Assembly (NCBI GenBank): GCA_020073385.1
Contig: JAIQFH010000006.1
Span: 62,001 to 126,000, forward strand
Reading direction: 5' to 3'
DNA length: 64,000 nt
Source of the DNA: Terriglobia bacterium
GTDB taxonomy: Bacteria > Acidobacteriota > Terriglobia > Terriglobales > Acidobacteriaceae
Shown here: positions 54,058-60,111 of the stretch, piece after piece
Layout of the letters: each line of letters begins with the position of its first letter
Position numbering within the stretch: position 1 is the stretch's first letter
The notes under the pieces: generated by a model
Told to the model about the DNA's origin: nothing
Databases searched by the model: none
Seen by the model: the letters and a program-made list of their open reading frames with translations, nothing else
Position numbers and translations under genes: made by a program

Positions 54058-54603
54058 GAATAGCGCCTGCAGCTACACATCGGTTCATTCCCTTACGGCC
54101 AAGTCGATCTGCCGCCCGAACCTACACCGCAAATCGCAGTGATTCTAAATGATTTGCACGGAGAGCCGGCGAAATTTGATCAGCCACACCTGCGCTGTGT
54201 CAGGCGGGATTCAGATATTTTTATCCTTCTAATCACTTTTCCCGACTTGCCGCCGGAGCCGGGTTTCTGCTACAAGAAACCTAATCAAGCTTCTTCGTCC
54301 TCGCAATTCTGCTTGGGGAAAGAAACGAGGCAACCGCCTCCCAGCTGTCCGTTTTCTAAACGCGGACACTTTAAATCAACCTCAATCGAGTCTGCATTCT
54401 TAGATTGCACGACTCCGGGCCGCTAGTCATTTTGTTTGGAGCTTGCATGCGGTACGGCAGCAGATCTGATGTTAGCGGGAGAACTGCTCTTCTGAGAGTC
54501 TCGACCGCCTTGGTGTGCGTCCGACCCGTACGCTTCCGAAACTGTCCCTCACCCCTCACCAACCAAAATCTTGACATGTTAGTTTTTACCGCCGGAGGAA
54601 GAT

Positions 54604-56397
54604 ATGGCGACGACGAATTTCGTCCAGATTGAGAATGATGCCGAAATCAAGCAACGCCTCGAAGCGGAGCGCGCGCGTCTGCGCAAGATTGCCGGACTCG
54701 ACCGACCCGAACACTTTCACCGCCCCGTCGAGCGTGCCTTCACGGCCGAGCAGCGCCCTCACACCACGATCCTGTTCGGCGGCTTCACCTGGAAACATGA
54801 AGATCTGATCCGCGCCGTCTTTCAAGGCTGTGGATACCGCTGCGAGAAGCTTCCTGTGCCGGACGTCCCGGCTTTCCAGACTGGTAAGGAATTTGGCAAC
54901 AACGGGCAGTGCAATCCAACCTACTTCACCGTGGGTAATCTGGTGCAGTATCTGCAATTCCTTGAGAAAGAAGGCCTCCCACGCCAGCAGATCCTCGACA
55001 ACTACGTCTTCTTCACCGCCGGGTCTTGCGGGCCTTGCCGCTTTGGCATGTACGAGGCCGAATACCGCTTCGCGTTGAAGAATGCCGGGTTTGACGGGTT
55101 CCGCGTGCTGCTCTTCAAGGATAGCGACGGGATCAAGGCCGCATCGGGCGAGCCGGGCCTGAAGTTCTCTGTCGATTTCGGATTCGGCATGCTCAATGCG
55201 ATGCACCTCGGCGATGTCATCAACGATCTCATCTACCAGATTCGTCCGTACGAAGCCAACAAGGGCGAGACCGATCGCGTCTTCCGCGAGATGGTCGACG
55301 GGCTCTGCGAAGACCTGAAGAATCGCAAGGCGTTTGAGATCGAGAAGAGCGCTCCTGACTGGGCGAAGCCGAAATTCAAGAGCAACAAGATTCTCCGCAA
55401 TACCTTTAATGTGTTCGGCAAATGGCACGAGCACATGTGGGGCAAGGACTATCTCAATGCCCTCAAGACCGCGCGCGAAAAAATGGATTCCATCGAGGTG
55501 GACCGCACCCGCGTGAAGCCGCTGGTGAAGATCACTGGCGAATTCTGGGCTCAGACCACCGAGGGCGATGGCAACTTCCACATGTTCGAATTCCTCGAGC
55601 GCGAAGGCGCTCAGGTTCTGGTTGAGCCCATCGCGACCTGGGTCGCCTATCTGATGTATCAGGCCAAAGCGCATGCGATCGCGAAGTGGCCAGTCAATCG
55701 TCCGCATCGTGACCCGAAGTGGTACGAATTGAAAAAGAATTTCGCGAACTATATCGGCCTGCGCAAGAAGCTCTGGGGGATCGGCGCGGGCGAGCGGATG
55801 TGGGGTTTCTTCTATCACCGCACCGCGAAGAACATGGGCGGAATCACCCATCATCTGGCGCCGCAGACGGAATTGGCCGAACTGGCGCATCCCTTCTACA
55901 ACCAGTTCGCGCGCGGCGGCGAGGGACATCTCGAAGTTGGCAAGAACGTTTACTACACCGTCCACAAACTCTGTCACATGGTGCTGGCGCTGAAGCCCTT
56001 CGGATGCATGCCGTCGTCGCAGTCCGACGGTGTGCAGTCGGCCGTGATCAACAAGTTCAAGGACATGATCTTCCTTCCGATCGAAACCTCCGGAGAAGGC
56101 GAGGTCAATGCCCACAGCCGCGTGCAGATGGCGCTCGGTGAAGCGAAGGTCAAGGCCAAGACGGAGTTTGAAGAGTGCCTCAAGTCGACTGGCAAGACCA
56201 TGAGCCAGATTCGCGAATACATCGACGAGCATCCCGAACTGAAGCGGCCGTTCTATCACGTGCCGCATCGCGAGGGAGTTGCCGGAACCGCGGCGCAATT
56301 CATTCTGCACGTGAGCGAGCGGATCGATAAAGACACGCGCTTCCGGAAGCGTTCGCGAGTGCGCGTGGAAGCCGCGCCTGCGATGTCCGGAGACTAA
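54604..56397 (+). CDS. HgdB-like/2-hydroxyacyl-CoA dehydratase-related protein (activase partner)
   Basis: TAGSCGPCRFGMYEAEYRFAL; LKPFGCMPSSQSDGVQSAVINKF; adjacent to BadF-type gene. Confidence 0.8.
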   Translation: MATTNFVQIENDAEIKQRLEAERARLRKIAGLDRPEHFHRPVERAFTAEQRPHTTILFGGFTWKHEDLIRAVFQGCGYRCEKLPVPDVPAFQTGKEFGNNGQCNPTYFTVGNLVQYLQFLEKEGLPRQQILDNYVFFTAGSCGPCRFGMYEAEYRFALKNAGFDGFRVLLFKDSDGIKAASGEPGLKFSVDFGFGMLNAMHLGDVINDLIYQIRPYEANKGETDRVFREMVDGLCEDLKNRKAFEIEKSAPDWAKPKFKSNKILRNTFNVFGKWHEHMWGKDYLNALKTAREKMDSIEVDRTRVKPLVKITGEFWAQTTEGDGNFHMFEFLEREGAQVLVEPIATWVAYLMYQAKAHAIAKWPVNRPHRDPKWYELKKNFANYIGLRKKLWGIGAGERMWGFFYHRTAKNMGGITHHLAPQTELAELAHPFYNQFARGGEGHLEVGKNVYYTVHKLCHMVLALKPFGCMPSSQSDGVQSAVINKFKDMIFLPIETSGEGEVNAHSRVQMALGEAKVKAKTEFEECLKSTGKTMSQIREYIDEHPELKRPFYHVPHREGVAGTAAQFILHVSERIDKDTRFRKRSRVRVEAAPAMSGD

Positions 56398-56405
56398 AGG
56401 AGATT

Positions 56406-56472
56406 CACCGCCGAGGTCGCGGAGAATTCTTCTCCTGTTTTTCTCGGCGAACTCTGCGATCTCGGTGGTTGA
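56406..56472. repeat. Imperfect palindromic element (family A architecture, divergent sequence)
   Basis: tcaccgccgaggtcgcggaga pairs imperfectly with ttctcggcgaactctgcgatctcggtggttga. Confidence 0.6.
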
Positions 56473-56505
56473 GGCGCTTGATCTTCTTGAAAGAATGAGG
56501 AATTC

Positions 56506-59500
56506 ATGCACGATCATAAGGGCCCGCAACTGATCCAGATTGCACCGCTCGAGGTGCCGCCATCCATCCAGCAAGTCCGCCGTGGGCATCATGCTCATGA
56601 CGAAAAGACCACGTTTCTCGTTGGGCTCGATGTGGGCTCTACCACGGTAAAGGCCGTTGTCGTCGAAGCGGCCACCGACAAGGTTCTCTGGCAAGACTAT
56701 CAGCGCCACGAGACCAAGCAGCCAGAAAAGACCCTCGAGTTCCTGAAGCGGATGGAGGCCGAGGCCGGCATCAACCGGCACAACACGCGCATCTTCATGA
56801 CCGGGTCAGGTGGAACGGGCATCGCGGATCAGATCGGCGCGAAATTCGTGCAGGAAGTCACGGCGGTATCGCTGGCGGTCGAGAAGCTTCATCCCGAGGT
56901 TTACTCGGTAATCGAACTGGGCGGGCAGGACGCCAAGATCATCGTGTTCAAAGATGACGACGAGACCGGCCGCAAGAAGAAGATTCCATCCATGAATGAC
57001 AAGTGCGCTGGCGGCACGGGCGCAGTCATCGACAAAATTAACGCGAAGCTGAAGATCCCCACCGAACTGCTGGCTGAGCAGAAATATCACGGAATCAAGC
57101 TGCACAAGGTCGCCGGAAAGTGCGGTGTATTTGCCGAAACCGATATCAATGGCTTGCAGAAGGTCGGTACGCCTCCGGACGAGTTGATGGCTTCGCTGTT
57201 CGAGGCGATTGTGCTGCAGAACCTGAGCGTGCTCACGCGCGGGCATACTCTGCGGCCACACGTGTTGCTTCTGGGTGGCCCCAATAGCTTCATTCGCGGC
57301 ATGCGGGAAGCGTGGCAGGCCAACATCCCGCGCATGTGGCAGGAGCGCAAGGTTCAGATTCCTGATGGTGCAAAGCCCGAAGATTTAATCAAGGTTCCGC
57401 AGAACGCGCAGTACTTCGCCGCTCTGGGTGCAGTTGAGTTTGGGCGGAGCGAGGACGATTGTATCGGTTGCTATTGCGGTTACGAGAAGCTGATCCACTA
57501 CATCGACTACGGCCGGCAGGAAGAAAAGGCCAAGTCCGGCGGAAAGGGTCTGGTCGAAAAGCCCGAAGACCTCGATGTCTTCAAGGAAGCCTACCGGCGC
57601 AAGAAGTTCACGCCCGCCGCGTTCGCAAAGAACAGCACCGTTGCGGGATTCATCGGAATTGACGGCGGGTCAACTTCAACAAAAGCTGTGTTGCTGGACG
57701 AGAACGGCGACATTCTCTGCAAATCGTACCAGCTCTCAAATGGCAATCCCATCCAGGACACGATCGAGATGTTCGAAAACCTGCGCTCCCAGGTGGAGAG
57801 TCAGAACGCAAAAGTGGAAGTGCTGGGCGTTGCGACCACCGGGTATGCGAAGGACATCCTGAAAGATGTTCTCAAAGCAGACGTGGCGCTGGTGGAGACA
57901 GTCGCCCATACCGAGTCGGCTCTGAAGTTCTACGAAGACCCGCACGTGATTGTTGACGTGGGCGGGCAGGACATCAAGATCATCGTCCTGCACAACGGGC
58001 GCGTAAAGGATTTCAAGTTGAATACGCAGTGTTCAGCCGGCAATGGATATTTCCTGCAATCCACCGCCGAAGGCTTCGGACTCAGCGTCAATCAGTACGC
58101 TGATCTCGCCTTCTCTGCGCAGGCGATGCCGGTGTTCGGCTATGGCTGCGCCGTATTCATGCAATCGGATATCGTGAACTTCCAGCGTCAAGGCTGGCGC
58201 GCCGAAGAAATTCTCGCGGGACTCGCGGCCGTATTGCCTAAGAACGTTTTCCTCTATGTTGCCAGCATTCCCAATCTCGCGGCGCTCGGCTCACGCTTCG
58301 TCCTGCAGGGCGGGACGCAAAACAATCTTGCCGTCGTGAAGGCTGAAGTCGATTTCATCCGCAATAGCTTCCGTGCGACGGGGAAGCAGCCAGAAATCAT
58401 CGTTCACGAGCATTGCGGCGAGTCTGGTGCCATCGGCGCCGCCCAGGAATCACTACGCCTGTGGCGCAACGGTCAGCAGACTACGTTCGTCGGGCTCGAC
58501 GCGGTTCGCAAGATCGAGTACCGCACGACTCGTAACGAAGATACACGTTGCCATTTCTGCAAAAACGACTGCCTGAGAACCTTCATCGATATCCGCACCC
58601 AGCCCAAGAACGATCTCAGCTTTGTACCCATTCAAAAAGTCACCAAGGTTCCGCTCATGCACGGCGAGCAGCGCCTGATCATCGCCACCTGCGAGAAGGG
58701 CACGGTGGAAGATGTCAACGACATGAAGGACATCAAGGCCGGTCTTGACTCCATCCGCGCCCAGCACCCCAACTTCGTGGACTACGCGTCAAAGGAAGTC
58801 TTCCGGCCGACGAATGCGAAGAGCGTGGCGGATCCCTTGCCGACCAAGGGTTGGGCGGGTTGGAAAAAGGGCGACAAGGAGCGACGTGCCCTGATGGAGA
58901 ATCGCAAGAAGCTGCGTATCGGCATCCCGCGTGTCCTTAACATTTACACCTACGCCCCCTTGTTTAACGCCTATTTCGAAAGCCTCGGCGTGCAACCCGA
59001 GAACATTATTTACTCCGACTACACCAGTTCCGAACTCTATCGCGCGGGGGCTAGCCGTGGTGCGATCGATCCATGCTTCCCCGCCAAGATCGGCATCTCT
59101 CACGTCTACAACCTGATTCAGGAGAAGCACCGCAAGAAGCCGCTGGATGCGATCTTCTTCCCGATGTACGACGTGCTGCACTCGCCGCTGGTGAAGATCG
59201 TTGGGGCTAATGCCTGCCCGACGGTAACTGCTACTCCTGAAACGGTGAAGGCCGCATTCACCAAGGAGAACGATGTCTTCGCCGAGCACAACGTGAAGTA
59301 CATCGACCCGGTGCTCAACTTCTCCGACCGAAAGTTATTTGCTCACCAGATGCTGCAGGCCTTGCAGCCCGTTCTCGGTCTCTCGCTGGAAGAAAGCGAT
59401 CGCGCAGTCGAGTCGGGATTCGTCGCGCTCAAGGAATACGAAACGGGCATTCGGCGTCGCGCGCGTCAGGTAATTGATCAACTCGAGCGCGAAGATCGCA

Positions 59501-60111
59501 TTGGTATCGTCATGCTCGGGCGCCCTTATCATCACGATCCCGGCTTGAATCACGAGATCCTCGATGAATTCCAGAAGCTGGGCTATCCCATCTTCTCCCA
59601 GAACACTCTGCCGCTGGATGAAGATCTCCTCGAGCGATTGTTTGGCGAGGAAGTCCGCGCCGGCATGATCACCAGCCCGCTCGACATCACCGACGCTTGG
59701 AAGAATTCCTACTCCTGCAGCACGAATCACAAGGTCTGGGCTGCGAAGTTCACGGCGCGGCATCCCAATCTGGTCGCGCTGGAGATTTCCAGCTTCAAGT
59801 GCGGACACGATGCGCCGATCTACGGCGTAATCGAAGGCATTATCGAGCAGTCGGGCACGCCGTATTTCTGCTTCAAAGACCTCGATGAGAACAAGCCTAC
59901 CGGGTCGATCAGGATTCGCGTCGAGACCATCGACTACTTCCTGCGGCGCTACCGCGAAGAAGTGATCCGGAAACGTAAAGCCGAACAAGACATCGAGGCA
60001 CAACTGGCGGCGCTGGAAGCGCGACTACGCAGCGAGAAAGGCGGATCGGAATTGCTACCTTCTCAGATCGGCCAACTGGAGCCGGAAGCCCAAGGCATGG
60101 CGGCGGACTAG
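56506..60111 (+). CDS. BadF/BcrA-type double activase ATPase fused to a DUF2229/HgdB-like C-terminal region
   Basis: Two ASKHA domains: FLVGLDVGSTTVKAVVVE...NDKCAGGTG and GFIGIDGGSTSTKAVLLDENG...NTQCSAGNGYFLQ; C-terminal IGIPRVLNIYTYAPLFNAYFESLGV...GRPYHHDPGLNHEI. Confidence 0.9.
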   Translation: MHDHKGPQLIQIAPLEVPPSIQQVRRGHHAHDEKTTFLVGLDVGSTTVKAVVVEAATDKVLWQDYQRHETKQPEKTLEFLKRMEAEAGINRHNTRIFMTGSGGTGIADQIGAKFVQEVTAVSLAVEKLHPEVYSVIELGGQDAKIIVFKDDDETGRKKKIPSMNDKCAGGTGAVIDKINAKLKIPTELLAEQKYHGIKLHKVAGKCGVFAETDINGLQKVGTPPDELMASLFEAIVLQNLSVLTRGHTLRPHVLLLGGPNSFIRGMREAWQANIPRMWQERKVQIPDGAKPEDLIKVPQNAQYFAALGAVEFGRSEDDCIGCYCGYEKLIHYIDYGRQEEKAKSGGKGLVEKPEDLDVFKEAYRRKKFTPAAFAKNSTVAGFIGIDGGSTSTKAVLLDENGDILCKSYQLSNGNPIQDTIEMFENLRSQVESQNAKVEVLGVATTGYAKDILKDVLKADVALVETVAHTESALKFYEDPHVIVDVGGQDIKIIVLHNGRVKDFKLNTQCSAGNGYFLQSTAEGFGLSVNQYADLAFSAQAMPVFGYGCAVFMQSDIVNFQRQGWRAEEILAGLAAVLPKNVFLYVASIPNLAALGSRFVLQGGTQNNLAVVKAEVDFIRNSFRATGKQPEIIVHEHCGESGAIGAAQESLRLWRNGQQTTFVGLDAVRKIEYRTTRNEDTRCHFCKNDCLRTFIDIRTQPKNDLSFVPIQKVTKVPLMHGEQRLIIATCEKGTVEDVNDMKDIKAGLDSIRAQHPNFVDYASKEVFRPTNAKSVADPLPTKGWAGWKKGDKERRALMENRKKLRIGIPRVLNIYTYAPLFNAYFESLGVQPENIIYSDYTSSELYRAGASRGAIDPCFPAKIGISHVYNLIQEKHRKKPLDAIFFPMYDVLHSPLVKIVGANACPTVTATPETVKAAFTKENDVFAEHNVKYIDPVLNFSDRKLFAHQMLQALQPVLGLSLEESDRAVESGFVALKEYETGIRRRARQVIDQLEREDRIGIVMLGRPYHHDPGLNHEILDEFQKLGYPIFSQNTLPLDEDLLERLFGEEVRAGMITSPLDITDAWKNSYSCSTNHKVWAAKFTARHPNLVALEISSFKCGHDAPIYGVIEGIIEQSGTPYFCFKDLDENKPTGSIRIRVETIDYFLRRYREEVIRKRKAEQDIEAQLAALEARLRSEKGGSELLPSQIGQLEPEAQGMAAD

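Follow-up and report, generated by a model that had tools for sequence, protein, structure and literature searches.

In the literature searched, only three kinds of ATP-driven catalytic partners have been described, namely the 2-hydroxyacyl-CoA dehydratases (HAD; HgdAB or HadBC with the activase HgdC or HadI), the class I benzoyl-CoA reductases (BCR; BzdNOPQ and MbdONPQ), and the double-cubane cluster proteins (DCCP) with their reductase DCCP-R. By spending ATP, the known members of the superfamily attain extremely negative potentials. In HAD, each subunit holds a [4Fe-4S] cluster on three cysteines, and activases provide two cysteines per monomer (PMC11574389). The double cubane of BzdN is bound by six cysteines of one subunit (Cys36/73/100/263/293/327), the [4Fe-4S]-OH2 subunit of BzdNO has a three-Cys pattern, and DCCP is a homodimer with one double cubane per subunit (PMC11971306). 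Large proteins of the same family as the one studied here, which join activase domains with DUF2229 (PF09989), are already present in databases, as the original prediction for this DNA had pointed out; a functional study of DUF2229, COG3580, COG3581 or activase-fused proteins was not found, in a search that covered few subscription papers, among which one may exist.

We analyzed a stretch of 64,000 nucleotides (the window) from a Terriglobia bacterium, in which two consecutive genes, P1 and P2, probably encode one ATP-driven low-potential enzyme, HAD-like or class I BCR-like, with its activator permanently attached (a probability of about 0.7). As predicted from alignments and models, this architecture is well supported by gene pairing, domain order, homology of the two halves, cysteine conservation, and predicted folds. 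The genes and the likely ribosome-binding site are as follows:

54594..54599, + strand: likely ribosome-binding site of P1, GGAGGA, from the sequence
54604..56397, + strand: P1, 597 aa, predicted COG3581-like catalytic half (HAD/BCR-I fold, divergent), from the open reading frame, AF2 model, Foldseek, and broadened profile
56506..60111, + strand: P2, 1201 aa, with activase A, activase B, four-Cys linker, and DUF2229 catalytic half

Both open reading frames agreed in coordinates, lengths, and motifs with the original prediction, and P1 and P2 are real, strongly conserved genes, under strong purifying selection when compared against four relatives (dN/dS 0.03-0.15, with dS saturated). P2 is preceded by GAGGA at 56497-56501, and scans for promoters and terminators returned nothing beyond chance. 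A 731-aa open reading frame lies antisense over P1 (54586-56781, - strand) and was taken as mechanical. The pair stands alone at its locus, since the flanking genes are on the opposite strand, with a sugar kinase and a KDPG aldolase to the left and c-type cytochromes to the right.

The pairing is widespread. A scan of 85,000 species genomes recovered at least 80 loci in more than 10 phyla; the matches listed included Acidobacteriota, Ignavibacteria, Zixibacteria, Marinimicrobia, Poribacteria, Planctomycetes, Polyangia, relatives of Nitrospina and Nitrospira, SAR202, Gemmatimonadota, Bacteroidetes, and Thioalkalivibrio, with Acidobacteriota from soil and peat as the closest named relatives. Of the 75 evaluable loci among these listed matches, 72 have the two genes side by side on one strand (69 of them with P1 first), and in the other three (L070, L083, L109) P1 had no P2 in the adjoining sequence. 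In one SAR202 locus (L114), P1 and P2 are fused into a single 1751-aa protein. P1 is seemingly split by a deletion and a change of frame in four loci (L053, L074, L028, L030); because Ns occur at the breaks or close to them, these copies were read as assembly gaps and a pseudogene reading was rejected.

Furthermore, the window subtype has sister subtypes. In 21 sampled acidobacterial stretches carrying other DUF2229 subtypes, a P1-like module was either fused to DUF2229 or encoded by the gene beside it. Other DUF2229 proteins, fused (~1400 aa) or split (~1020 + 435 aa), share the order activase-activase-DUF2229-COG3581-like with P1-P2, whereas the window subtype forms a separate clade in the DUF2229 tree (100/100) and has a larger P1, encoded by a separate gene mostly upstream of P2. 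Fused proteins are scattered over this tree, in which some branches are long. The 8.2-Mb genome containing the window also has a second, distant pair (contig C94, locus L172 8802-13195; L002, L008), in which a 1020-aa protein with two activases and DUF2229 is followed by a 453-aa P1-like protein; the subtype of this pair is another clade of its own (100/100). The P1-like protein on C94 keeps the three predicted cluster ligands described below and lacks the equivalent of Cys142.

Profile searches bore out the claim that P2 consists of two activase ATPase domains and a further C-terminal domain, which is DUF2229. Its parts are:

56614..57495, + strand: activase domain A, about residues 37-330, with Cys167 and Cys206 kept in 56/56 relatives
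57652..58443, + strand: activase domain B, residues 383-646, with Cys509 and Cys548 kept in 56/56
58549..58692, + strand: four-Cys site Cys682-x2-Cys685-x3-Cys689-x39-Cys729, between activase B and DUF2229
58915..59604, + strand: core of PF09989 DUF2229; the whole catalytic half extends to about residue 1176

BcrAD_BadFG matched P2 in two stretches (E 6.6e-71, 239 bits against a cut-off of 31.5), the activases were also matched as CoA_E_activ domains, and the DUF2229 profile scored 165 bits (E 2e-48, cut-off 29.4). With this profile match and two predicted cluster-ligating cysteines per domain, P2 belongs to the activase (ASKHA / BcrAD_BadFG) family. In the PDB, activase B matched HgdC, the 2-hydroxyisocaproyl-CoA dehydratase activator, and MbdQ/MbdP; the equivalog models for BcrA, BcrD, and BzdQ gave 87-113 bits, below their cut-offs of 313-578. 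The linker motif CxxCxxxC...C is kept across phyla and lacks a Pfam entry, with Cys682, Cys685, and Cys689 in 55 and Cys729 in all of the 56 aligned P2 relatives, and it could bind an extra Fe-S cluster or Zn.

The relationship of P1 is more remote. P1 had no match above cut-off in Pfam and none in NCBIfam, PHROGs, or the PDB (phmmer), neither P1 nor P2 matched Pfam HGD-D (PF06050), and PDB searches by sequence alone with P1 and DUF2229 profiles found no relatives. Narrow profiles of the window subtype linked P1 to neither DUF2229 nor HGD-D, and the narrow DUF2229 profile reached only 17.5% against HGD-D. When sister subtypes were added, the broadened COG3581-type and DUF2229-type profiles aligned with each other at 97% (local) and 98.6% (global) in hhalign, and each aligned with HGD-D at 92-98% (92-93% on the P1 side); these profiles were hand-cut and their E-values refer to single comparisons, not to a whole database, and none of the negative controls, which comprised activase, radical SAM, reversed, and six shuffled profiles, exceeded 1.8%.

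The AF2 models, in which the halves were modelled separately, had pLDDT values of 87.3 (P1) and 87.5 (DUF2229 half); for the fused SAR202 DUF2229-P1 model, MAFFT overlaid the P1 rows on the DUF2229 half. Foldseek placed HAD, DCCP, and BCR on top for the DUF2229 model, with HAD 3o3n as the best match and E-values of 1e-5 to 5e-4 for the first seven. The first ten matches of the P1 model all belonged to the DCCP/BCR superfamily, with DCCP 6eno as the best (E 3e-3); TM-scores were low (0.2-0.5) and no P1 match had an E-value below 0.001, so the fold match of P1 is supporting and not decisive. The original description of P1 as HgdB-like thus found no backing in Pfam, in NCBIfam, or in the phmmer search of the PDB, and was borne out only by the broadened profiles and predicted folds. 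As judged from these profiles and models, our data show P1 and DUF2229 to be paralogous to each other and distantly related to the HGD-D / benzoyl-CoA reductase / DCCP family.

Cysteine conservation was counted in alignments of 67 P1 and 56 P2 rows. The predicted cluster ligands of the two catalytic halves are:

54910..54912, + strand: P1 Cys103 (GQCNP), 67/67, aligned with the first Cys of DUF2229 and of HGD-D
55036..55038, + strand: P1 Cys145 (GPCRFG), 67/67, aligned with the second Cys of DUF2229
56005..56007, + strand: P1 Cys468 (PFGCMPS), 67/67, aligned with the third Cys of DUF2229 and of HGD-D
59074..59076, + strand: P2 Cys857 (DPCFP), 56/56
59215..59217, + strand: P2 Cys904 (NACPT), 56/56
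59800..59802, + strand: P2 Cys1099 (FKCGHDAP), 56/56

All three invariant cysteines of P1 align with the three of the DUF2229 half, and when full-length alignments are used, HGD-D cysteines line up with the first and third as well; beside them, P1 Cys142 is present in 63 of 67 relatives. Loss of the cluster cysteines across orthologues, which would have spoken against the original prediction, was never seen in the relatives sampled. That prediction had also held that a second dehydratase subunit was lacking, which was not supported: given the paralogy of P1 and DUF2229 and their kept cysteines, the supposedly absent second catalytic subunit is there.

In this context, the first alternative is that P1-P2 is a true 2-hydroxyacyl-CoA dehydratase, whose heterodimer converts an acyl-CoA produced by other enzymes of the cell. 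The number and pairing of the cysteines match HAD (PMC11574389, PMC11971306), as does the best fold match of DUF2229. Like HAD, P1-P2 has two cluster cysteines per activase domain, a predicted heterodimer of paralogous subunits, three cysteines per subunit, and a related fold, and two homologous subunits with three cysteines each, as in HGD-D-type enzymes, were indeed found, with cluster binding and dimerization predicted. P1-P2 differs from HAD in that its activases are duplicated and fused to one subunit, its subunits are only remotely similar, it has an extra four-Cys site, and its host is, by gene content, not a strict anaerobe. Moreover, a CoA gene context was not found. CoA-transferase, CoA-ligase, and acyl-CoA dehydrogenase were not among the best 25 recurrent flank families across phyla, and none of them lies beside the window genes; the original statement that CoA-transferase and acyl-CoA dehydrogenase are missing nearby stood after a scan of the ten nearest flanking proteins. 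A profile search found no HGD-D protein in the genome of the window either. Overall, we consider a true dehydratase unlikely.

We also checked whether the pair consistently accompanies a known dehydratase. Among 149 acidobacterial genomes, P1 occurred in 16, all of which had DUF2229, and HGD-D in 48; P1 and HGD-D were found together in 8 of the 16 (Fisher p 0.15). Since the genome of the window and half of the sampled genomes with P1 lack HGD-D, P1-P2 does not act as an accessory to a resident HGD-D enzyme, and that candidate was rejected. With its cluster cysteines kept and its co-occurrence with HGD-D inconsistent, the proposed self-contained ATP-driven low-potential Fe-S system is supported.

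Less probable still is that P1-P2 serves as a stand-alone electron pump for another enzyme (e.g., a radical SAM or corrinoid protein) and is not itself a catalyst. A radical-SAM/SPASM gene lies beside the pair in many acidobacterial loci (L041 8157-9536, L045 15443-16825, L095 11724-13013, and others), in positions that vary from upstream to downstream or on the opposite strand, and once between P1 and P2 (L095). Its co-occurrence with P1 in the 149 genomes is above chance (5 genomes common to 11 and 16; Fisher p 0.002, uncorrected for kinship). Against this reading, the gene is missing in 11 of the 16 P1 genomes, P1 is missing in 6 of the 11 genomes having it, the genome of the window has no close relative of it, and all ligands are kept in both catalytic halves.

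Among 90 same-strand neighbors scanned, none was common to all loci; radical SAM family genes and, in Ignavibacteria, HpnE-like genes recurred, and neither was general. An HpnE-like hydroxysqualene dehydroxylase gene lies upstream of P1 in six Ignavibacteria loci (L058, L063, L068, L069, L072, L073), accompanied by squalene-synthase-like genes. In some lineages, a Cys-free protein of ~90 aa (MFEIYRE..YRVVYFTEL..H) is tied to the pair. It was found directly or closely 3' of P2 in 12 loci from several phyla (L060 15552-15824, L062 16340-16612, L071, L076, L084, L086, L088, L101, L103, L057, L059, and L085), and in 4 of the 149 acidobacterial genomes, each of which also has P1, nearby on the same contig; it had no match in Pfam or the PDB and was not found in the genome of the window.

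Compared with class I BCR, P1-P2 likewise has two different activases and two different catalytic subunits, together with fold matches and an activase B that resembles MbdQ/MbdP. However, class I BCR combines a double-cubane subunit with a [4Fe-4S]-OH2 subunit, and here a six-Cys half such as BzdN is absent and no aromatic-degradation context was seen. DCCP with DCCP-R is similarly stand-alone, related in fold and ATP-driven, as predicted here, whereas DCCP pairs two identical subunits, each carrying a double cubane (PMC11971306), and P1-P2 is a predicted heterodimer with three cysteines per half. That P1-P2 is a double-cubane-cluster-type reductase of small molecules is very improbable, even with DCCP as the best fold match of P1 and among the best for DUF2229, since an [8Fe-9S] double cubane requires six cysteines of one subunit (PMC11971306), and P1 has three invariant cysteines plus Cys142 and the DUF2229 half three. 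The double-cubane analogy of the original prediction finds no support on the same count, and two single [4Fe-4S] clusters, one per half, are the better prediction from the conserved cysteines. P1-P2 is HAD/BCR-I-like in build and falls outside HGD-D, DCCP, and class I BCR by the tests that define them.

For the preferred reading, a single ATP-driven enzyme with a built-in activator, we infer the cluster types, assembly, electron path, and catalysis as follows. The tandem activases of P2 would form a tethered pseudo-dimer with one [4Fe-4S] cluster between Cys167, Cys206, Cys509, and Cys548, which a donor at the level of ferredoxin or flavodoxin would reduce, perhaps via the four-Cys linker site. 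ATP hydrolysis would alter the activase hinge and drive single electrons into the P1/DUF2229 heterodimer, where each half would hold one three-Cys [4Fe-4S] cluster; electrons would travel from the activase cluster first to that of one half and then to the other half. The open iron site of one half may then reduce a small substrate or drive its reductive elimination.

HAD and BCR enzymes are classically anaerobic, and the four strong heme-copper oxidase genes in the genome of the window count against this reading. The same genome has five domains of the pyruvate/2-oxoacid:ferredoxin oxidoreductase type; from both gene sets, the host probably has the means for oxygen respiration as well as for ferredoxin reduction.

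Tentatively, and with the odds against it, P1-P2 could add a fourth functional branch to the HAD/BCR-I/DCCP superfamily, that is, a class of ATP-driven [4Fe-4S] enzymes that is widespread and compatible with oxygen, with a built-in activase, an optional dedicated 90-aa third subunit, and a non-CoA substrate, in respiring soil bacteria and bacteria of low-oxygen waters. If the preferred reading above is right, two genes would make up a complete ATP-powered Fe-S machine, also in hosts with terminal oxidases, and this machine would span Acidobacteriota, Ignavibacteria, Planctomycetes, Marinimicrobia, Poribacteria, SAR202, and other lineages. With such an all-in-one design, the question of its substrate would be approachable with just two genes.
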